20,454 nt of DNA from a virus. Position numbers and translations under genes: made by a program. Shown piece after piece: positions 360 through 20,454 of the stretch. How positions within the stretch are numbered: position 1 is the stretch's first letter; each line of letters starts with the position of its first letter. The notes under the pieces are model-generated. The model did no database searches, had not been told where the DNA came from, and worked only from the letters and a program-made list of their open reading frames with translations. The stretch is from positions 1 to 20,454 of IMG/VR virus record IMGVR_UViG_3300028115_000151; one strand, written 5' to 3'.

Positions 360-1132
360 TTTGTTTTCCTTTTGTTATCTGAATACTTGTCTTTAAGGAA
401 CCTTAACGAAACAGGCATCTCATCAAAACTTCCGTTATCAACCTCATGAAGCATCCAGATACCAGACCAATTATTGTTTCCTTGGTGTCCTAGATACCCC
501 TCACTGTGCTGATAGAAGATCCCAGCAAAGATACCAGTAATAGCAGTACCATCACCCCTTCTGCTAAATGCTATGTCTCTGTCCTGCACATGGCCCATAA
601 CACAGCTCATGTGTTTCTTGGTAATCATAGCCCTGGCACTGGATACCGGCCTACCCATAACACCAGACGTAAAGAAATGAGAGAACCCTACGCCATTGAT
701 CATTACAGGCTCAAGGTAATCAAACACTTCCCAATCAGACAGGTTAAGATCGCGGTAACCAATCACATCTTCTAAGATGGCATCGGCATCTACAGCACGC
801 TCTATCCGTTGTTCGTGATTACCAAGCAGAAACACAAGACTTGGCTTCCAACCCTTTTTCTTGTTTCGTTTTAGCCTTTGGATTTCTTTCTTGATTGGTG
901 CAAGAAACAAGTTCATTGCTCTGTTCCCTGACTCTACATCCTTACTGTACCTACGACCTTCAAAGTCCTTCTTTCCTTTATCGTAACTACTAAGTGAAGG
1001 CATATCCCAGAAGTCACCAAGGTTTACAATCACATCTGGTTTCTTATCTACGATATACTTTGCAGCCCATTCAAGATGGTCTATTGGTACACCATCCTTG
1101 ACCTGACAGTCAGGTATCACTGCTATCTTCAT
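350..1132 (-). CDS. Calcineurin-like metallophosphoesterase
   Basis: A 260-aa protein with the motif series of the calcineurin-like phosphoesterase superfamily. These are D8-C-Q10 near the N-terminus (the usual D-x-H has Gln here), N37-L-G-D-F-W-D43 matching the GD.(V/H)D block, G104-N-H-E-Q-R109 matching GNH(E/D), and a later M-G-H-V-Q-D segment matching the GH metal-binding block. Such enzymes hydrolyse phosphomono- or diesters using two metal ions, and many phages carry one near replication genes; the substrate is not known. The start is preceded by GGAGGAAGC, a strong ribosome binding site. The gene starts inside the end of the endonuclease gene (23-base overlap) and is followed by a small membrane protein gene. 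It could act on nucleic acid or on a nucleotide; the sequence does not decide. Confidence 0.85.
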   Translation of the reverse strand: MKIAVIPDCQVKDGVPIDHLEWAAKYIVDKKPDVIVNLGDFWDMPSLSSYDKGKKDFEGRRYSKDVESGNRAMNLFLAPIKKEIQRLKRNKKKGWKPSLVFLLGNHEQRIERAVDADAILEDVIGYRDLNLSDWEVFDYLEPVMINGVGFSHFFTSGVMGRPVSSARAMITKKHMSCVMGHVQDRDIAFSRRGDGTAITGIFAGIFYQHSEGYLGHQGNNNWSGIWMLHEVDNGSFDEMPVSLRFLKDKYSDNKRKTKCK

Positions 1133-1538
1133 GCTTCCTCCTACTTTGTATGTAGTTATCTAGCTTCTTGTCTTCGTAAACAGTGAAGTGTTTTATTCCT
1201 TCCTTCTCACACCACTGGCCCATTGTTAGTTTACTTCCTTTGCGTACTTTCTTATTTGGATCAGAGAGTACAAAAACTAACTCATAATCTGGCAAGCTAT
1301 CCCGTATTGATTTGTACTTTAAGGTGTCACCAGGACGAAAGAAACCTTTACATTCGATCAGGACATCATCCAGTACAAAATCAGGCTTATAGTTTCGTTT
1401 CATAACGTATGGCACTGAGAATGGTTCGTACTGATAACCCTTGCCACTGTTATTCGCTGCAAACTTAGCCTCTAAACTACTCCTGTACTTGCTGTTTACT
1501 GCTTTCTTTCTGCTTACTGCTTTCTTTCTGGTTGGCAT
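1110..1538 (-). CDS. Endonuclease I (T7 gp3-like Holliday-junction resolvase)
   Basis: A 142-aa protein, close to the 149 aa of T7 endonuclease I, which cleaves branched DNA and helps resolve junctions and degrade host DNA. The conserved pattern is present in order: Y18-R-S-S-L-E23, Y37-E38 with VPYV just after, K51-P-D53-F, and I-E62-C-K64-G. E23, E38, D53, E62 and K64 are the likely metal and catalytic residues. A later WCEKEGIKH stretch also matches T7. The reading frame stays open upstream as far as 1751, but that would overlap the exonuclease by 275 bases and add non-family sequence, so ATG at 1538 is chosen. No strong ribosome site precedes it, so expression probably depends on coupling to the exonuclease, whose last 62 bases it overlaps. 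Its basic N-terminus (RKKAVS, RKKAVN) comes from an 18-bp tandem repeat. Confidence 0.9.
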   Translation of the reverse strand: MPTRKKAVSRKKAVNSKYRSSLEAKFAANNSGKGYQYEPFSVPYVMKRNYKPDFVLDDVLIECKGFFRPGDTLKYKSIRDSLPDYELVFVLSDPNKKVRKGSKLTMGQWCEKEGIKHFTVYEDKKLDNYIQSRRKHEDSSDT

Positions 1539-2238
1539 TATGAAAATCCATTGGTATTGTTCTACCGCGTTGTAACATCCATAGCAGGTGGCTGTTCTCA
1601 ACTGCTCTTTGGAACCCGTCTTCACCAAACTCTTCAATGTACAGATCAATAACCAGATTGTCCCAAGTTTCCCTGTCGTTATCAGACAATAGTTTCTCAG
1701 CTTTCTTAGGGCCAATACCATTGATTCCAATAATGTTATCAACCTTATCACCAGTTAACATCTGAGTGTAAAAGAACTTAGTACCAGATTCCTCTGTTAC
1801 TTCTTTCCACTCTTTCTTAATGTAGTTATAGTGAAGGCCGGGAACCATCAACAAGTCTTTATCAATGGTGGCTATTGCGGTATCGTCAGTCTGGAGTAAC
1901 GCCATTGCATCGTCAGCTTCCATTCCGTCTACAACCTGTGCGTCATAGTACTCAATCAGATAGCCCCTAATGTTTTCGTAATGATAGGGTTTCTTTGAGC
2001 CTGATCTGTTTTCTTTGTAGTCACTCCTAATCTTATGTCTAAAGTTGTTTTTACCAGTTAGGAATATCTTATAGGATTCGCATTGCGTATCCTTGATGAT
2101 TCCATTTACAAACAACTTACAACTATGTAGCGTAAACGAATCGGGGTCAGCCGTAACCAACCCCGTTTCCTTGTTCGTACTTTGGCAAGCGAACCCTATC
2201 CGATAAACAATAGGGTCGCCATCAATCAAGAGTTTCAT
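1477..2238 (-). CDS. 5'-3' exonuclease (T7 gp6-like, FEN/PIN-type fold)
   Basis: This 253-aa protein carries the acidic motifs of the phage and Pol I-type 5' nucleases: D6-G-D near the N-terminus, R71-x-x-Y-K, E107-A-D-D110, I-D126-K-D128, and G163-D-K-V-D-N168. These are followed by the helix-hairpin-helix-like GINGIGPKKAEKLL at 171-184. The enzyme removes RNA primers and resects ends from the 5' side during replication and recombination. Start ATG at 2238 has AAGGG upstream, and the gene lies 11 bases after the SSB gene. The C-terminal tail (KESSKQ twice, then QVQE) is low-complexity and encoded by a tandem repeat that is also the N-terminus of the overlapping endonuclease gene. Confidence 0.9.
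   Translation of the reverse strand: MKLLIDGDPIVYRIGFACQSTNKETGLVTADPDSFTLHSCKLFVNGIIKDTQCESYKIFLTGKNNFRHKIRSDYKENRSGSKKPYHYENIRGYLIEYYDAQVVDGMEADDAMALLQTDDTAIATIDKDLLMVPGLHYNYIKKEWKEVTEESGTKFFYTQMLTGDKVDNIIGINGIGPKKAEKLLSDNDRETWDNLVIDLYIEEFGEDGFQRAVENSHLLWMLQRGRTIPMDFHNANQKESSKQKESSKQQVQE
1496..1531. repeat. 18-bp tandem duplication in the exonuclease/endonuclease overlap
   Basis: Two adjacent 18-base units on the plus strand, beginning TTACTGCTTTCTTTCTG at 1496 and 1514, differ only at the last base (C or G). They lie within the 62-base overlap of the two genes. Because 18 is a multiple of three, the duplication is read as KESSKQ twice at the exonuclease C-terminus and as RKKAVS then RKKAVN at the endonuclease N-terminus. 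Confidence 0.95.
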
Positions 2239-2249
2239 TGTGATAGCCC

Positions 2250-2888
2250 TTAGAAGGGTATGTCGTCGTCAAACTCTTCATGTGCATCTGACTGCACTGC
2301 CTTAAGATGTGGCTTGTTTGACTCTGTAATACGCTTCTCATGAATGTACTTAGCCAACCCAAACAGAGACTTGATTGCAGGGCTATCGCTATCCTCAGCA
2401 CCAGCCAAACATTGATCTGTAAAACTAGACTTAGTTACTGAGTCTCGGTACTTAGCTGGAATAGGAGCAAGACCTGCAACCTCATCGTATACTTTGTCTT
2501 GTACTTGTTTGTTCTTAATCACTACAGTACATGGAATACCCAGTACGGATTCCCAGTCAGCAACCTGATCTTCTTCTGCTGATGGTTTGAATGCTTTGTA
2601 GTATTCAAGTTCTTTGCCAAGTCCAGACATAGTACGGAAGATATTAAAAGGCTTAGTCCACAAAATGCGTGGTGCTTCTTTGCCATCAATAGTTACAGTG
2701 TTATTAAGAATCTCAACACAGAGTGAGATCTGTTGGCATGGTGGTTTCTCTTCCCCTGCATAGTTTCGTTCCTGCATACCAAGGTCAGCTACATACACCA
2801 GCCTTCCTTCATATTCACCAGGTTCAAGGTTTGAGTATTCGGTTTTACTGCTAGATACTTCTTGACTCATTGCTCGTTCAAAAGCCAT
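2250..2888 (-). CDS. Single-stranded DNA-binding protein
   Basis: A 212-aa protein between polymerase and exonuclease, the place where T7-like phages carry their ssDNA-binding protein. The N-terminal two thirds could be an OB-fold core (GEYEGRLVYVADLG, CQQISLCVEIL). The C-terminus is acidic and ends E-E-F-D-D-D-I-P-F212, the same final residues as bacterial SSB tails, which recruit replication and repair partners; T7 gp2.5 instead ends in its own acidic tail finishing with Phe. The protein would coat ssDNA at the phage fork. The start ATG has a perfect AAGGAG eight bases upstream. The call rests on context, the acidic C-terminus and the tip motif; the core alone was not matched to a precise family. 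Confidence 0.8.
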   Translation of the reverse strand: MAFERAMSQEVSSSKTEYSNLEPGEYEGRLVYVADLGMQERNYAGEEKPPCQQISLCVEILNNTVTIDGKEAPRILWTKPFNIFRTMSGLGKELEYYKAFKPSAEEDQVADWESVLGIPCTVVIKNKQVQDKVYDEVAGLAPIPAKYRDSVTKSSFTDQCLAGAEDSDSPAIKSLFGLAKYIHEKRITESNKPHLKAVQSDAHEEFDDDIPF

Positions 2889-2898
2889 GATAATCTCC

Positions 2899-4752
2899 TT
2901 AGTGGATTTCAGAATAATCTTTAGCGAACTTTATGTCGCATTCTAACTCACGATTTAAGTGTAACAATTTGTTGACTTTTTGTATAGACTTGTTTAATAA
3001 CTCCTTTATATCATTTTGTTTGGTTTCGTTTAGTTCTAAGATTACTTCGTCATGGAACTGTGCTGTAAGTTGTGGTCTTTCCTGAATGATATAAGCAACC
3101 CACATATCAAAACAGAATGTCCCAGTGCCTTGATTTAATGTACTGAACTTATCTTTATCAGTTTTAAGGTGGTAGTAGATCTTTGCAACAGGATTCCATA
3201 GCCACATCTTGTCGCCTTCTATTCTTCGTATTCCTACGTTGTCAGCAATGGTTTCCAAAGACCAGTTACGTTTCCAGTATGCCTCTCGTACTGTCTTAGC
3301 ATCTTCCTGACTGATACCTAGTTGACGAGAAAGGGTAGCCACTCCAGCACCATAAGTACAGGCATAGTTACCGCCCTTGTATATATGCCTGATCTTAACT
3401 ATATCTTCAGGCTGAAACCCAGCCTTATAATCTGCTACCTCTTGTTTAGTCAATACACCCGCAGACAATGCAAGGTCAAGGTGTGGATCAAAGTCGGGTG
3501 TCATCATCTCCTTAACGTACTGTGGATCGTAGTCCCACATATAATGCTGCTTAGTGCGATCCTCAAGTGATGCCATGTCTGAGCCACAAAGTATATTGTC
3601 TGGACTACGAACAGTAAGTAGTGATCTTATCTCAGCACCATACGGCTTACGGCTTGAAGGAATGTTTACACAGACAGCGTGTTTAAATCTCAGCGTGTTA
3701 GTGAACCCTTGTATCTGGGCCTTTACATATCCGTCTGAGTCTACGTTATCAAGGAAGCCCTTTACCAATCCTATTCTATGCTTAACTACAGTCATAGTCT
3801 CAAGGTGAGCAAGTTCAGGGTGCTTGTCAAACATCTTAGTTACTGACTTGCACATACTTCCATCGTTGTTCTTGATTTGTTCTACTGCTTTGCCTGTTTG
3901 TTTTGAGAACTTAAATGTCTCAGCCTTCCAGCCCAAACTCTTAAGCCAGTCCTTTAATTGCTGAACACTTCCGGGATTAGGTTGTTCTGTTCCAACCACA
4001 ACTTCGATAGCTTCTTTTGTGTCAAAGTCTTTCCCAGCCTCTTCGGTTATTTCTTTCCACCTTAGTCCAGTAACAGAAAGAGAACCATCAATCTTGTATG
4101 GCTTTGCTGGACGCTTGCACTTCTTGATCTTCTTTACTTCAGGCATTACAGCAAACAATGTGTCAACTGATCCCTGATAAGAACTTTCAAGCTGCTGTAG
4201 TAACGACTTAGCTTTCTCAACGTCCAGCTTCCACCTAGACTTCTCTTGCAAGGCAGCACAACGCATCTTCAACGAAAGGTAACGAATAGCACGATCAGGA
4301 TTAGCATCGTTATAAAGGTTTGAAAGGTACTCTGACTGCTTTTCCCAAAGCATAGTGTTGATCTTTACGTCCTCAACACAACGTCTGCAATACTCTCCGA
4401 TATCAAGGTTTTCCCAGTCGTCAATCTTTGGCTTGGCAATACCGAATCTTTCTCCCCATTGTTCAAGACCATGCTTTACTACATCTGGATACAAGTACCA
4501 TGACAAGGCAAGGGTGTCTACAATGAACGCTTTAGTCTCGACCTTAAGGATCCTAGATAGGACAGGCCAGTCATAGCGGATAAAGTTATGACCAATAATC
4601 CTGTCACTATCCCGAAGAGAACCCAGAAAAGAGCGTATGTCGTCGTATACTGTATGAACCTGAATGTGCCCAGACTCTTCTCTAACAGCCATGCAATGTA
4701 TTTTTGTAGCATCTATTCCGTCCGTTTCAATATCAATTATGTAGTCAGCCAT
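2899..4752 (-). CDS. DNA polymerase, family A (T7-type, with 3'-5' exonuclease)
   Basis: This 617-aa replicative polymerase is somewhat shorter than T7 gp5 (704 aa). The proofreading domain shows Exo I D7-I-E9, Exo II N56-F-I-R-Y-D61 and Exo III around C125-V-E-D128. Polymerase motif A is S391-D-M-A-S-L-E397-D-R. Motif B is R455-H-I-Y-K459-G-G-N-Y463-A-C-T-Y467-G, and motif C is H567-D568-E569. Tyr463 sits at the position equivalent to E. coli Phe762 and T7 Tyr526; work on marine virus polymerases links Tyr or Phe here with lytic phages and Leu with temperate ones. The stop of the primase gene abuts the start codon (TAA-ATG), so the two are probably co-translated. The SSB gene follows after a 10-base gap. 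Confidence 0.97.
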   Translation of the reverse strand: MADYIIDIETDGIDATKIHCMAVREESGHIQVHTVYDDIRSFLGSLRDSDRIIGHNFIRYDWPVLSRILKVETKAFIVDTLALSWYLYPDVVKHGLEQWGERFGIAKPKIDDWENLDIGEYCRRCVEDVKINTMLWEKQSEYLSNLYNDANPDRAIRYLSLKMRCAALQEKSRWKLDVEKAKSLLQQLESSYQGSVDTLFAVMPEVKKIKKCKRPAKPYKIDGSLSVTGLRWKEITEEAGKDFDTKEAIEVVVGTEQPNPGSVQQLKDWLKSLGWKAETFKFSKQTGKAVEQIKNNDGSMCKSVTKMFDKHPELAHLETMTVVKHRIGLVKGFLDNVDSDGYVKAQIQGFTNTLRFKHAVCVNIPSSRKPYGAEIRSLLTVRSPDNILCGSDMASLEDRTKQHYMWDYDPQYVKEMMTPDFDPHLDLALSAGVLTKQEVADYKAGFQPEDIVKIRHIYKGGNYACTYGAGVATLSRQLGISQEDAKTVREAYWKRNWSLETIADNVGIRRIEGDKMWLWNPVAKIYYHLKTDKDKFSTLNQGTGTFCFDMWVAYIIQERPQLTAQFHDEVILELNETKQNDIKELLNKSIQKVNKLLHLNRELECDIKFAKDYSEIH

Positions 4753-6414
4753 TTACCACCCCTTCTTAGGCTCAAGGTAAGTAACAGTTGCTTCGTCAAA
4801 GAACACATCACAGTTATAAGTCTGTCCATACTCACGATCAAACAACATATAAAACTGGGACATATTTTTGTTTTCTTCAGGGCAGTCGTCCGTACGATCC
4901 CTACTAATCCCATGACCATAGTGAAACCATTTCTCCATAGCTCTTGAACCAGTGAACTCACTGCTCAATACCTTAGCCCCTGCTTCGTGTGGTTTAGAAC
5001 CTTTTGGTTTTGGGTTTACATGGGAATAACAGAATAGAGTAATCGGGTAAGACTGGACAAGGTCAGCCATATCTGTTGCTATCTCGTTCAGCTTGTCATT
5101 AGCTTCAGACGAAGAATAACGAGAGACCAGTGCAGTAAGTGGGTCAAGGATAAAGATATTGATACCATCAAGCAAGTGCATTTCCTGCATTGCCACCCTG
5201 ATATCATCCCAATCACGACTTGCTCCACGATCATAGAACCTAACCATACCATTCATTGAGAGTAGGGTGCTTCTCAATAGCTCATCTGAGTATTCTTTGT
5301 CAGGTCTGGTGAAATCTACCTTAGCGTGTTTACTTGCTAACTTCTTAGCAGTTCTTACAGGACTGTTCTCAAGGTCAAACATACCAACCCTGACTTTCTC
5401 GTTAAAGATCAGGTGGTGAACCAGTTGATGTTGATGATCCGTCTTACCAATCTTAGGTGCTGCACCTACGCAGTGAATGGTGTGTGGTCTTATACCAAAA
5501 CAAGCCTTAGTTACAGTAGGCCAAGGAAATGGGATACCCATCTGCGGGCGTTCCATAGCCTTTTCTATTACGTCTATTACGTCAACAACCTCACCCATGC
5601 GTACAGGCTGTGCATTCCAAACAGCCAGGTCAAACAACTCTGCACTACGACCAGCTATCAGCATATCACTGGCATCCTTGAGTGGCAGAGTAACAGCTTT
5701 AGCAGTGGGGATAATCTTAATGCAGTCCCTCAATGCTTTCTGTCCTGCCTGATCCATGTCAAAACAAAGTATGATATCATCAAAATTATTTAAGTACTTA
5801 CGATTGTTAATTAAATCACTGGCTGCACCCTGTGCGCCTCTAGTAAGAGACACAACTGCTGGTGTGTACTTGCTGTACTTTTCTGGTCTGTTCTCTATGA
5901 TGGATTGAAACAAGGACATAGCATCTAGGCGACCTTCAGTAATAAATAACTTCTTACCACTGGTTACAAGGTGGCAACCCCATAGATCTATGTCCCCCTT
6001 ACGATCACCAACAGCACTGAACTTCTTATCCCTAGTGTCTCTTACTTCATACCCTACGATATCTCCATTACGAGTATCAGGATAGTAATGCTTGATTATC
6101 TCTCCAGTTTCTTCTGAGTGTTCAACCCCTACTGAGAAGTGTTCTACTGTGTCCTTACTTAGGTTTCTGTCCTTGATCTCAGAACTAGGTAGTTTCTTGA
6201 TCTTATTTAAATCCATCTTAGTTTCCTGTCTAACCATAGGAACAACTACTGAACTGTGTGGTTTTGGATTCCCATTAATATCAGATGCACTGTAGTACTT
6301 TCCACAAGCAAAACAGTATCCATCTTCTGTTCCATCGTCTTGAAGAAACACCTGTATTCCGTCACTACTACCACACTCACAGGACAATCTCTTACTTAAA
6401 CACTTGCCACCCAT
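4753..6414 (-). CDS. Primase-helicase fusion (T7 gp4-like)
   Basis: A 553-aa protein close to the 566 aa of T7 gp4. It primes lagging-strand synthesis and unwinds the fork as a hexamer. The N-terminal zinc finger has C12-E-C14-G-S-S-D-G and C34-F-A-C37. The TOPRIM primase core shows F-I-T-E160-G-R-L-D and C-F-D219-M-D221-Q-A-G. The RecA/DnaB-like helicase half has Walker A G317-A-A-P-K-I-G-K-T325 and Walker B I-N-I-F-I-L-D-P. The first zinc pair is C-x-C rather than the usual C-x2-C, a small departure. The ATG overlaps the stop of the upstream 70-aa gene by one base (TAATG), and the gene ends against the polymerase start, making a tightly coupled replication operon. Confidence 0.97.
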   Translation of the reverse strand: MGGKCLSKRLSCECGSSDGIQVFLQDDGTEDGYCFACGKYYSASDINGNPKPHSSVVVPMVRQETKMDLNKIKKLPSSEIKDRNLSKDTVEHFSVGVEHSEETGEIIKHYYPDTRNGDIVGYEVRDTRDKKFSAVGDRKGDIDLWGCHLVTSGKKLFITEGRLDAMSLFQSIIENRPEKYSKYTPAVVSLTRGAQGAASDLINNRKYLNNFDDIILCFDMDQAGQKALRDCIKIIPTAKAVTLPLKDASDMLIAGRSAELFDLAVWNAQPVRMGEVVDVIDVIEKAMERPQMGIPFPWPTVTKACFGIRPHTIHCVGAAPKIGKTDHQHQLVHHLIFNEKVRVGMFDLENSPVRTAKKLASKHAKVDFTRPDKEYSDELLRSTLLSMNGMVRFYDRGASRDWDDIRVAMQEMHLLDGINIFILDPLTALVSRYSSSEANDKLNEIATDMADLVQSYPITLFCYSHVNPKPKGSKPHEAGAKVLSSEFTGSRAMEKWFHYGHGISRDRTDDCPEENKNMSQFYMLFDREYGQTYNCDVFFDEATVTYLEPKKGW

Positions 6415-8696: not shown

Positions 8697-9422
8697 TCAC
8701 ACTCCTGTTGGTTCTGCTGGTGACATTTCGATCAGCGTTTTTATCTGACACTTCCATCTATCCCACCAGATAACAGCTTGCTTTCCATCCATCTTGTTTA
8801 TCTGTTCTTGGTCAAAGCCCCACCAATCTGTAATAGGATGTCGCTCACATCCGATTTGTAAGATATCAGAAGTATAACTTATTGGGTACGTTTCAAGAAA
8901 AATTGATTTGATGTGCTTTAGATTTCCAAAAACGCCTCTTATACTAGCTCCAGTCAGATCAGCTTCAGTAAGATTAGCTCCATTCAGATTAGCCCCAGTA
9001 AGAAGGGCTCTAGTAAGATTAGCCTCAGTAAGGTCAGCCCCAGTAAGGTCCGCCCAGTTGAGCCAAGCCCTAGTCAGATTGGCTTCAGTAAGATTAGCTC
9101 CAGTAAGATTAGCCCTAGTAAGACAAGCTCCAGCCAGATCAGCTTCAGTAAGATCTACTCCGGACAGATTAGCCATAGTAAGATAAGCTCCAGTAAGATT
9201 AGCCCTAGCAAGACAAGCCCCAATGAGATCAGCTTCGGTAAGATCCACTCCAGTAAGATCCGCTCCAGCAAGATAAGCCCCAGTAAGATCCGCCCCAGCC
9301 AGGTCAGCTCCATTCAGATCAGCTCTAGTCAGATTAGCTCCAATAAGATCAGCTCGTTCCCCTCCTTCAGTGCCATCGAGCCATCTTTTATGCTTTTTTA
9401 AGATTTCATAATTAATGTTCAT
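8697..9422 (-). CDS. Pentapeptide-repeat protein
   Basis: A 241-aa protein. Residues 23-162 are about 28 tandem pentapeptides of the A(D/N)LxG type, enough for roughly seven turns of the right-handed quadrilateral beta helix typical of this family. Residues 58-87 and 88-117 are near copies of each other, so the array grew by duplication of a 30-residue block. The C-terminal 79 residues form a separate Trp-rich region ([18 protein letters not shown]). Some pentapeptide-repeat proteins, such as MfpA and Qnr, mimic DNA and bind gyrase; others have unrelated roles, so gyrase action is only possible. ATG 9422 is chosen for its GGAG eight bases upstream; a GTG three codons earlier has no ribosome site. 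The start overlaps the stop of the upstream 57-aa gene (ATGA). Confidence 0.88.
9072..9251. repeat. Duplicated 90-bp block inside the pentapeptide-repeat gene
   Basis: Two adjacent 90-bp blocks encode near-identical 30-residue segments, each beginning GVDLTEADL. At finer scale the region 8940-9355 is a run of imperfect 15-bp repeats with the core AGTAAGATTAGC or similar. Confidence 0.85.
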
Positions 9423-9592
9423 TCTATACACTCCGGTTTGTCGTAACGATAATCAGGCCAGTGTCCAGCGCATACCATTTTTATATAATGAGCCTCTTCT
9501 ACTAGCTCGTCTTGATAGTCCATGCTGCTGGCCCAGATAACCAAGTGAGCAAGGATTGTTGCGATTACTGCGGTTAAAAGTAGTTTGTTCAT
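9419..9592 (-). CDS. Small membrane-anchored or secreted peptide (57 aa)
   Basis: The minus frame from ATG 9592 to TGA 9419 begins MNKLLLTAVIATILAHLVIW, a single hydrophobic segment after one Lys, as in a signal anchor or signal peptide. It continues with an acidic, Cys- and aromatic-containing outer part (SSMDYQDELVEEAHYIKM, then two Cys near the end). GAGG lies eight bases before the ATG, and the stop overlaps the pentapeptide-repeat start (ATGA), so it is a real operon member. It is preferred over an open frame in the same region (9453-9638), which has no ribosome site and an odd composition. Function unknown; periplasmic exposure is inferred. Confidence 0.7.
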   Translation of the reverse strand: MNKLLLTAVIATILAHLVIWASSMDYQDELVEEAHYIKMVCAGHWPDYRYDKPECIE

Positions 9593-9649: not shown

Positions 9650-10312
9650 TTACAAGTTAATACTAGCAATTATTTTATATTGCTTTGCAATCTTCTTTCC
9701 ATGCGCTGGATAGGCGATTACCTTTGTTCCTTTGTCCCAACATGCGCGACAGTCGCCGCACTTGCCTTCTCTCTCGTATGCTTGGCAAACTGTCATGCCA
9801 TCCTTTGCAGAACCCGCGCTCTCTATAATAGTGCTGCTATTCTGGCCTTCTATTGTCTCGCCGGTGATTGAGTCACTTGATAGGCGAACAACAACATTAG
9901 GCAAGGCCTCCATTTGTGCCAATATTCCAGAGAATTTCTTAAATTTATACATTCTAGTGGGTAGCCAATGGCGAACCCATGGTGTCGCCTTCATTACGGC
10001 CAGAATCTTTTTAGCTAAGTCTAAGCTGTACATATCCCCGCTATCAAACCATCTAAAGTAACGGTCGTTATCCAGTTCTTTAACCATTGTTGCTGTCCAG
10101 TCTGTGTTCTTCCAGTCCTCGCGGTTATGCTCACGTGGTGCTTTCACATTAGGGAATCTGTAATTGCCAGTTGTTGCATAGCATCCTGAACAAGCTGCTA
10201 CCAGTTCGCCATTATCCCCAATTGAACCAGGGCAAGTATCTAAAGCTTGGAGTGACCAAGAACGGCAAGGCATTTTTGACGCTTTGCTTAATTTTGGGCT
10301 TGCTGTTTTCAT
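9650..10312 (-). CDS. GP88-family phage protein, cysteine-rich
   Basis: This 220-aa protein matches the GP88 (gene product 88) family found in phages and plasmids. It has KMPCRSWSLQALDTCPGS, C41-S-G-C44-Y-A, Y-F-R-W-F-D-S-G-D around 85-93 and V-R-H-W-L-P-T-R at 113-120. A C-terminal cluster C176, C185, C188, C191 is followed by W. The cysteine sets look like metal or iron-sulfur ligands. No activity is established for the family as far as I know. ATG 10312 is chosen because GAGG stands 10-13 bases upstream; an in-frame TTG five codons earlier contains that same ribosome site. The gene follows ArdC and shares a leader sequence with the gene at 11502. Confidence 0.78.
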   Translation of the reverse strand: MKTASPKLSKASKMPCRSWSLQALDTCPGSIGDNGELVAACSGCYATTGNYRFPNVKAPREHNREDWKNTDWTATMVKELDNDRYFRWFDSGDMYSLDLAKKILAVMKATPWVRHWLPTRMYKFKKFSGILAQMEALPNVVVRLSSDSITGETIEGQNSSTIIESAGSAKDGMTVCQAYEREGKCGDCRACWDKGTKVIAYPAHGKKIAKQYKIIASINL

Positions 10313-10341
10313 TGTGTCTAACCTCAATCAGTTTGGTTTTT
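10313..10341 (-). repeat. Repeated gene leader, copy 1 (before the GP88-family gene)
   Basis: Read on the minus strand, this short intergenic leader contains ATTGAGGTTAGA just before the ATG and a CCAAACTG-like stretch further up. It is nearly identical to the leader at 11503-11534 and related to that at 11223-11252. It includes the ribosome site. Confidence 0.75.
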
Positions 10342-10364: not shown

Positions 10365-11222
10365 TTATTCCGCATCCGGTTTGGTAATCAGTTCATATGC
10401 TTTGCTGGCCTTCGCTGCGGCTTTGAATATCAGTGTACGATCATCTTTGAGGGCTTTGAGCCAGCTATCAATGTAGCTCGCGTGTTGTTCCAGTTCGTTA
10501 GTGATGCCCAGGTCACAGCAAAGGAAAGCGGCTCCAATTTCTGCTACCAGTTCTTCAAAGGCATATCCCTTTTTGCTGGTATCCTTGAGGCGATCAAGGC
10601 GATCTCTGTGGCCCGTACTGTGAACCGCCTCGTGAAGGAGTGTTGCAGCGTATCCGCTTTCTTTGGTGAAGGTTTCGCGCTCCGGCATCTGGATGGTGTC
10701 ATGTGATGGTGAGTAAAAGGCGCGATCCCCACCGGTTGAGAAGCCGATTCCAGCGCGTTCGGTGTAGCATTCAAAGAGTCGTACCGCTGCGTCTGTTCTT
10801 TCGTCCGCTGTGAACTCTTGGGCGGTATCAGTTGTTTCTGGCATTTCCAGCCCGTCAATCTGGTCAGTGTTGAAAACGGTGAATGTTTTCATCATGGGGA
10901 TGGTTTTTTCTTCACCTTCCTTCTCGATCTGGATGGGCTTATAGAAAGTGATCGTGGTTCCTTTCTCACCCTTGCGGACTTGACCGCCAGCTGCTTGGGC
11001 TTGTTTGTAGGTCAGCCATGCGCTGCTGTTGAAACCACGCTCTGCCGCAGCTGCCCATAAGATCAGAACATTAATACCTTGATACGCTTTGCCGGTGCCG
11101 TGATTGTGCGGCATCCCTGATGATCCATCGGAACCCCAAGGTTTGACCCAAGGGCTGGTTCCGGCTTCAAGTATGTCAACGATCTGGTCTGTGACGTGCT
11201 GTTGTAGGTCGGTTGTTTTCAT
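10365..11222 (-). CDS. ArdC-type antirestriction protein (ssDNA-binding domain plus zinc metallopeptidase-like domain)
   Basis: A 285-aa protein with the ArdC layout. The N-terminal domain (about 1-125) has SPWVKPW, GKAYQGIN, SSAWLTYKQAQAAGGQVRKGEKG and a VFN-D-QIDGL end, as in the ArdC ssDNA-binding domain. The C-terminal zincin-like domain has H197-E-A-V-H201-S-T-G-H205 and a downstream E-E-L-V-A-E-I-G. Plasmid ArdC proteins protect incoming ssDNA from restriction; the phage protein may protect its genome on entry, a role consistent with its place near the start of the first leftward operon. The base composition is richer in G+C than the replication genes (33 of 60 bases at 10621-10680 against 20 of 60 at 3001-3060), which hints at later acquisition. 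The ATG is preceded by GAGG. Confidence 0.9.
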   Translation of the reverse strand: MKTTDLQQHVTDQIVDILEAGTSPWVKPWGSDGSSGMPHNHGTGKAYQGINVLILWAAAAERGFNSSAWLTYKQAQAAGGQVRKGEKGTTITFYKPIQIEKEGEEKTIPMMKTFTVFNTDQIDGLEMPETTDTAQEFTADERTDAAVRLFECYTERAGIGFSTGGDRAFYSPSHDTIQMPERETFTKESGYAATLLHEAVHSTGHRDRLDRLKDTSKKGYAFEELVAEIGAAFLCCDLGITNELEQHASYIDSWLKALKDDRTLIFKAAAKASKAYELITKPDAE

Positions 11223-19108: not shown

Positions 19109-20454
19109 ATGGCTATATATCGTGGTGATGGTGGTGCTGGTGATGCTACAAATAACATTACCATTAACCAAATTACAGAGCTAAGTTCAGACGCACAAGC
19201 TGCTGCTGTTGCTGCTGCAAGTTCTGCTACATCTGCTTCTTCATCTGCTAGTGCAGCAAGCACATCTGCTACTAATGCTGCAAGTTCTGCTACATCTGCT
19301 GGTACATCAGCTACCAATGCTGCTTCTTCTGCCTCTTCTGCTTCTACTTCTGCAAGTAATGCAAGTACAAGTGAAACCAATGCCGCAGCTTCTGAAACCG
19401 CTGCTGCTGCAAGTGAGGCTGCTGCCGCACTAAGTGAAACTGCTGCTGCTGCTTCTGAAACTAATGCTGCTAGTTCTGCATCTTCGGCCAGCACATCAGC
19501 AAGTACAGCAACTACTCAAGCAACTAATGCTGCAACTTCAGCAACTAATGCAGCTACTTCTGCTAGTGCTGCTTCTACATCTGAAACAAATGCAGCTACT
19601 TCAGAAACTAATGCTGCAACCTCTGAGACAAATGCCGCAGCCAGTGCTACTAGCGCATCAAACGATGCAGCAACAGCCACTACAAAAGCATCAGAGGCTT
19701 CTACAAGCGCATCTAATGCTGCTACTTCAGAAACCAATGCTGCTGCTTCAGAGTCTGCGGCTGCAACATCTGCTACAAATGCAAGCACCTCTGAGACCAA
19801 CGCTGCTGCCTCTGAGACAGCCGCTGCTAGTTCTGCCAGTGCTGCTGCTACATCAGCAACAAACGCAGCGACAAGCGCATCCAGTGCGTCTACTAGTGCT
19901 TCTAACGCTGCTACCTCTGCAAGCAATGCTGCAACCTCTGAAACAAATGCTGCTACTAGCGAAACAAATGCTGCTGCATCTGCTACTGCGGCTGCTGCTA
20001 GTGCTGCTTCTGCTGCATCTTCTGACTATGCTGTTTCTTCCTGGTTCAGTACAACCAACAACGCAAGTAATTGGGACACAGCATACGGCTGGGGAGATCA
20101 TGCTAGTGTTGGCTACTATTCAGCATCTGGCGGTACTATCTCTGGAGATGTTACTGTCACAGGGACATTAAACGTTCAAACCGCAATTGGCTTAGGAGAC
20201 AGCGACAGACTGCGTTTTGGCACAGATGATAACTGTGAGCTTTTTTGTAATGGCAACAGTATGCTCCTGGATCTCAATACAGGTAACTTCTATATCCGCG
20301 ATGGAACTACAGTCATATACACATTTGATGATAATGGCAGCTTTACAGCCACAGGTGACGTAACAGCTTACTCAGATGAAAGACTAAAAGAAAACTGGAA
20401 AGACTTACCAGAAAACTTTGTTGCCAATCTTGCTGGTGTTAAGTCTGGTACTTA
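19109..20454 (+). CDS. Tail fibre protein with heptad Ala/Ser/Thr repeats and start of an S74 chaperone domain (partial)
   Basis: 448 codons are visible and the gene continues beyond the window. It starts MAIYRGDGGAGDATNNITIN, a common short head for fibres of aquatic phages. Residues about 27-302 are low-complexity A/S/T/N/E repeats with a seven-residue period, for example SETNAAT, like the stalk of lambda side-tail fibre. A beta-rich part follows (SSWFSTTNNASNWDTAYGWG, SGGTISGDVTVTGTLN). From about residue 421, YSDERLKENWKDL marks the start of the S74 intramolecular chaperone peptidase domain, which is usually cut off after trimer folding. The protein would mediate host attachment. The terminator at 19040-19076 precedes it, so it may need its own or readthrough transcription; only a weak ribosome site is visible. 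Confidence 0.9.
   Translation, partial: MAIYRGDGGAGDATNNITINQITELSSDAQAAAVAAASSATSASSSASAASTSATNAASSATSAGTSATNAASSASSASTSASNASTSETNAAASETAAAASEAAAALSETAAAASETNAASSASSASTSASTATTQATNAATSATNAATSASAASTSETNAATSETNAATSETNAAASATSASNDAATATTKASEASTSASNAATSETNAAASESAAATSATNASTSETNAAASETAAASSASAAATSATNAATSASSASTSASNAATSASNAATSETNAATSETNAAASATAAAASAASAASSDYAVSSWFSTTNNASNWDTAYGWGDHASVGYYSASGGTISGDVTVTGTLNVQTAIGLGDSDRLRFGTDDNCELFCNGNSMLLDLNTGNFYIRDGTTVIYTFDDNGSFTATGDVTAYSDERLKENWKDLPENFVANLAGVKSGT
19187..20016. repeat. Low-complexity repeat tract of the tail fibre gene
   Basis: About 830 bases made of imperfect 21-base (seven-codon) units rich in GCT, TCT, ACT, AAT and GAA codons. The tract leaves long open frames on the opposite strand and in a second plus frame, which are by-products of the repeat rather than genes. 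Confidence 0.85.

Follow-up and report, generated by a model that had tools for sequence, protein, structure and literature searches.

Bacterial SSBs of the E. coli type end in a short acidic tip, DFDDDIPF, in which the side chain of the terminal Phe enters a hydrophobic pocket of the partner protein, while a basic lip holds its carboxylate and a basic ridge the Asp residues (PMC10164576). In E. coli SSB, loss of this Phe abolishes partner binding and a Pro-to-Ser change weakens it (PMC10164576). The tail of the phage protein T7 gp2.5 has been implicated in contacts with the T7 polymerase and primase-helicase, and action of the tail in cis has been reported both for gp2.5 and for Enc34 ORF6 (PMC5686142). 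The last six residues of the HK620 SSB (DUF669), NDYPPF, are needed for bringing the phage Sak4 to SSB-coated ssDNA (PMC5928155). Furthermore, PrgE of plasmid pCF10 is an atypical OB-fold ssDNA binder, which binds dsDNA equally well (PMC11137577). Phage OB-fold SSBs with a C-terminal docking tail are known already; if our reading is right, what is new is such a member in a functionally unannotated family, PHROG 862/6599, on which no paper was found in the literature searched.

The window analysed in this work is a stretch of 20,454 nucleotides of marine phage DNA. Its SSB-like gene, delimited by the ORF, the PHROG 862/6599 matches, the relatives and the predicted OB fold, lies on the minus strand at 2250..2888 and encodes 212 aa. 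The predicted OB-fold core (residues 16-186, 2331..2843, minus strand; AlphaFold2 pLDDT mostly about 90) is followed by a linker that is disordered and weakly conserved, judged from pLDDT and conservation (residues 187-206, 2271..2330), and by the C-terminal tip DDDIPF (residues 207-212, 2253..2270), which is conserved as protein with varied codons. The last eight codons (GAG TTT GAC GAC GAC ATA CCC TTC, 2253-2276) encode the tip with the preceding EF, the C-terminus reads HEEFDDDIPF, and the stop codon is TAA (2250-2252). The predicted identity of this end to the tip of E. coli SSB was confirmed from these codons; the two agree over DDDIPF plus the preceding Phe, and the window protein has EFDDDIPF for the bacterial DFDDDIPF (PMC10164576). 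The chance of the window tip, calculated from the residue composition of the family, is about 4e-8. As a background set, 1370 ORFs that do not belong to the family and have a length of 100 aa or more were taken from the window and the fetched loci, and the tip form (D/E)(D/E)x(I/V/L/C)P(F/W) occurred in one of them; because many of these ORFs are mechanical, the figure should be read as a background rate, not as a census of genes. The sole such ORF comes from Rhizobium phage RHph_N3_19, where it sits between the genes for DNA polymerase and exonuclease. A chance match as the origin of the tip was ruled out by the composition figure together with the ORF background.

The SSB-like protein matched no Pfam family in the profile search, and a PDB sequence search gave no meaningful match. 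Over its core it matches PHROG 862 and PHROG 6599 (E 3.6e-15 and 8.5e-14), families of Zobellviridae-type hypothetical proteins that carry no functional annotation. Membership of known SSB families was rejected by sequence. PF00436 was matched neither by the protein nor by 25 relatives; for DUF669/N4-HK620 the hhalign probability was 0.1% (7-row set), and PHROG 743 was absent; for T7 gp2.5, beside the missing Pfam match, hhalign gave 0.5% against the single T7 sequence. A weak DUF669 signal (best E 0.014) was obtained in 5 of 25 relatives, and the profile search did not find DUF669 in the related genomes. By sequence, the protein stands outside PF00436, DUF669/PHROG 743 and T7 gp2.5; it would nevertheless work like the SSBs of these three groups, provided that the reading proposed below holds.

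In the AlphaFold2 model of the window protein, made with 25 relatives, the core is confident (most blocks near 90), helices follow the barrel and the tail is disordered, with pLDDT below 50 from residue 195; all structure models were of single chains. The best solved Foldseek match of this model was PrgE (E 2e-4), followed by SSB, RPA and PriB OB folds, mostly bacterial SSBs at E 0.01 to 0.1. VIA-align superposed 114 residues on PrgE at 5.3 A, with Z 7.3. The sister clade described below was modelled separately from 32 sequences; its best solved match, too, was PrgE (Foldseek E 5e-4), aligned with Z 8.2 over 110 residues at 3.5 A, and SSB, RPA and PriB chains were among those that followed. 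The PrgE match is modest in both cases (Z 7.3 and 8.2, TM at most 0.52). Taken singly, each Z is no higher than common arrangements give; the stronger point is that two separate predicted models agree on OB-fold DNA binders. DUF669 models were among the viral fold matches; T7 gp2.5 and Enc34 ORF6 were not among the fold matches listed, and their absence there excludes neither fold.

Relatives were collected in two scans. The first had the tip peptide among its patterns, and its tip counts were therefore not taken as evidence; the second used core patterns only ([LM]WTKPFN and YV[AG]DLG[LM]Q), with the tip left out. The core-pattern scan gave 80 loci, 77 of them with a C-terminus, and 53 distinct proteins. 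Each of these has Pro-Phe as its last two residues, except for one with Pro-Trp; the residue before Pro is Ile or Val in 51 and Cys in 2, and the usual end is (D/E)(D/E)x(I/V)PF. By comparing 44 distinct 3' ends, Pro was found to be invariant with all four of its codons in use, Phe to use both codons, and the fourth tip residue to be Ile or Val in 42. The varied codons for fixed residues indicate that selection acts at the protein level. The mean fraction of the majority residue is 0.70 in the core, 0.37 in the linker and 0.82 in the tip. The tip is thus a selected peptide of the extreme C-terminus under purifying selection, and the conservation among relatives on which the original prediction had been made to depend was borne out within the window's clade, in 53/53 distinct proteins. 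The exceptions are more distant members of the first scan. One lacks the tip and ends in SDPV (L051:4001-4588), another carries DDDIPF capped by SKVAA (L048:3238-3927), a third ends in AHIPF, stripped of acids (L050:3962-4552), and in L045 DDIPF is joined straight to the core, the linker being absent. A frameshift was rejected as the cause of these odd ends, as the other frames downstream hold no tip.

Three loci, L145:6115-6729, L161:4450-5160 and L008:3938-4672, may carry tips in tandem, with a second acidic end behind an internal (D/E)xxPF; examples are NDEIPFGGSSDDKLPW (Rhizobium phage), DDDLPFEPDNTEEDDDDNW and DDVPF with a longer acidic extension. Separately, a DUF669-type SSB of Citrobacter phage Omnitron (L143:589-1320) has an internal DFDDDIPF with further residues after it.

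A scan with Zobellviridae-type sequences yielded 80 loci and recovered a sister clade represented by 69 distinct C-termini. This clade matches the PHROG 862/6599 family at E 2e-52, and the two clades are homologous by profile comparison (99.6%, E 4e-24). They are separated by fully supported branches in a tree of the core only; L229 was left out of the sister-clade count because it was found by a window-clade query and falls within the window's clade on the tree. The sister clade keeps the predicted fold and the operon position of the window's clade. Its last residue is W in 45 proteins, Y in 12 and F in 5, and the remaining 7 of the 69 have W one or two residues from the end. The ends include EEEETW, DDDGDW, GGDDEW, DEDAPY and DDDIPW; Pro precedes the aromatic residue in about half of the proteins, and an (I/V)PF end was found in none of the 69. 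Isolates of the sister family have Pseudomonas, Vibrio and Salinivibrio as hosts, bacteria whose own SSBs end in -IPF. The C-terminus of T7 gp2.5, EEADEDGDF, is an acidic run plus Phe, and with this EDGDF end the family rule of an acidic run with a terminal aromatic residue resembles the T7 rule. The original prediction had set the T7 end apart as different; this holds for Ile/Val-Pro-Phe, which T7 lacks, but not for the acidic run plus Phe, which T7 also has. From these ends, the exact bacterial form of the tip is particular to the window's clade and looks like one version of a general phage rule. One sister-clade SSB-like protein (L003:3941-4618; PQ867854.1, XPQ50114.1) is labelled 'RNA polymerase sigma factor', likely a misannotation.

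The SSB-like gene is part of a replication operon of T7-like order on the minus strand: primase-helicase, family A polymerase, SSB-like gene, 5'-3' exonuclease and endonuclease I. The family A DNA polymerase (2899..4752; PF00476, phrog_17) is directly upstream of the SSB-like gene, and it and the primase-helicase with Toprim and DnaB C-terminal domains (4753..6414; PF13155, PF03796, phrog_239) are the candidate tip partners. The 5'-3' exonuclease (1477..2238; PF02739, phrog_107) is directly downstream, and a T7-type endonuclease I (1110..1523; PF05367, 6e-21; phrog_945) completes the module. In the testable relatives of the first and second scans, which partly overlap, the polymerase was directly upstream in 34/35 and 50/50 and the exonuclease downstream in 39/41 and 64/64; the same neighbour test gave 59/62 and 77/77 in the sister clade. 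A search of 13 related genomes or fragments for a canonical SSB (PF00436) gave none; eight of them are phage-collection records of 47-54 kb, most labelled complete; its absence from the window counts for little because the window is a 20 kb fragment. Sak4 was rejected as a tip partner, since 15 related records yielded no Sak4 annealase of phage origin. Outside phages, a relative of the SSB-like protein occurs on one MAG contig only (Desulfuromonadales), which is too slender for naming a host. By the fold matches, the T7-like operon slot and the lack of any other detected SSB, SSB is the likeliest function. The first guess that the gene encodes an SSB is thus upheld as very probable. The protein matches no Pfam family; its predicted fold, operon position and tail suggest that it is very probably the phage's own SSB.

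Elsewhere on the minus strand, the window encodes a long pentapeptide-repeat protein (8697-9431; PF00805, 7e-67), of a fold known from gyrase-protecting proteins, a GP88-family protein (9650-10327; PF17338) and an ArdC-type antirestriction protein (10365-11222) with an N-terminal ArdC domain and a zincin-like metallopeptidase. A tail-fibre-like ORF with Ala/Ser/Thr-rich repeats (19109-20454, plus strand) runs off the window end; spurious ORFs arise in its low-complexity DNA, in other frames as well as on the opposite strand.

We hypothesize that the tail is a docking peptide mainly for the phage's own replisome proteins, and we regard this as rather probable by analogy with the described phage systems. 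The OB-fold core would coat ssDNA at the phage fork, and beyond the flexible linker the free C-terminus DDDIPF would serve as the docking peptide. Its acidic residues, terminal aromatic side chain and carboxylate would dock into a basic, hydrophobic pocket of the partner, and the docking would draw partner enzymes to ssDNA. The likeliest main partners would be the family A polymerase and the primase-helicase of the same operon, possibly also the exonuclease or endonuclease I, as in T7, and the exact bacterial resemblance would be a clade-specific version of the acidic and aromatic rule. This docking on the phage's own replisome is favoured because the sister clade has an acidic run with W, Y or F, like T7 gp2.5, and because of the precedents of HK620 NDYPPF with Sak4 and of the T7 gp2.5 tail contacts. 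It is backed by the tip conservation, the protein-level selection, the operon position, the predicted fold and the lack of any other detectable SSB. Against it, the protein is tied by sequence only weakly or not at all to known SSB families, its fold match to PrgE is modest, and the tip of the window's clade is tighter than acid plus aromatic, with Ile/Val-Pro-Phe nearly fixed. The latter is exactly what bacterial SSB partners require, and binding to host partners explains it equally well.

Such host binding, in which DDDIPF would occupy the SSB-Ct pockets of host proteins (PriA, RecG, RecQ, ExoI, chi, DnaG and others) and either draw them to phage ssDNA or compete them away from host SSB, is compatible with docking on the phage's own enzymes, and we consider it possible at a clearly lower probability. 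The window tip matches the bacterial SSB-Ct exactly, (I/V)PF is near-fixed at the extreme C-terminus of the window's clade, the pockets hold a free terminal Phe and its carboxylate (PMC10164576), and no phage-encoded Sak4 turned up in the 15 related records. On the other hand, none of the 69 proteins of the sister clade, several of whose isolates infect Pseudomonas and Vibrio, ends in (I/V)PF, about half of that clade has lost the Pro whose change to Ser cuts partner affinity in E. coli (PMC10164576), and the T7-like replisome appears self-contained. The idea of the original prediction that the tip mimics host SSB or titrates its interactome finds no support as the leading explanation, as the sister clade swaps the tip and keeps the fold and the operon slot; the use of the tip on the phage's own enzymes, its alternative, seems to fit better given the sister-clade tips. 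Host binding stays alive because the window's clade fixes (I/V)PF beyond the need for acid plus aromatic. Slightly more speculative is a combination in which one SSB family would have two tail codes, a private T7-like one (acidic run with W/Y) and that of bacterial SSB, (I/V)PF, with the window's clade drawing on host SSB partners and the sister clade on phage enzymes only. A tail acting mainly in cis, as an ssDNA mimic on the OB groove that tunes DNA binding or the choice between ssDNA and dsDNA, seems unlikely. Removal of the acidic tail does raise the DNA affinity of T7 gp2.5 and let Enc34 ORF6 bind dsDNA (PMC5686142), and acidic character is common to both clades, but this action alone leaves unexplained the fixed Pro and terminal aromatic residue beside a drifting linker, as well as the absolute C-terminal position. 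Least probable of all, in our estimate, is that the protein serves replication as an OB-fold accessory factor other than an SSB, such as a polymerase cofactor or an annealing protein, and shares the tail rule. The modest fold match and the absence of a functional family assignment would allow it; against it, ssDNA-binding proteins head the solved matches, the related genomes yielded no second SSB and the gene sits in the SSB slot of a T7-like module.

With this analysis a probable SSB function can be assigned to a widespread family of the Zobellviridae and their marine relatives, so far hypothetical and once called a 'sigma factor'. The family also offers a natural tip series, IPF, IPW, APY and EEW, on one fold and in one operon slot, which makes the tip needs for phage versus host partners directly testable.

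Compared with the described systems, the window protein shares with bacterial SSB (E. coli type, PF00436) the OB fold, predicted here, the variable disordered linker and the terminal DDDIPF, but it lacks PF00436, has helices after the barrel and belongs to a family that is phage-only apart from the one MAG contig. The HK620 SSB (HkaK, DUF669 / PHROG 743, N4-type) is likewise of a phage SSB type with bacterial-like last six residues; it shows no sequence homology to the window family by profile comparison, belongs to another PHROG family, and its partner Sak4 was not found in window-family related records. PrgE, the best solved fold match of both clades (PMC11137577), differs in its plasmid conjugation context, about 8-11% identity and a modest Z. 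T7 gp2.5 (T7-type SSB, DUF2815 group) also acts next to a family A polymerase, a primase-helicase, an exonuclease and endonuclease I, and it has, as in both clades, an acidic tail with a terminal aromatic residue (EDGDF); the sequence relation is undetectable, and Ile/Val-Pro-Phe, present in the window's clade, is missing from T7. PHROG 862 / 6599 is the window protein's own family, and there the sister clade does without the (I/V)PF end.
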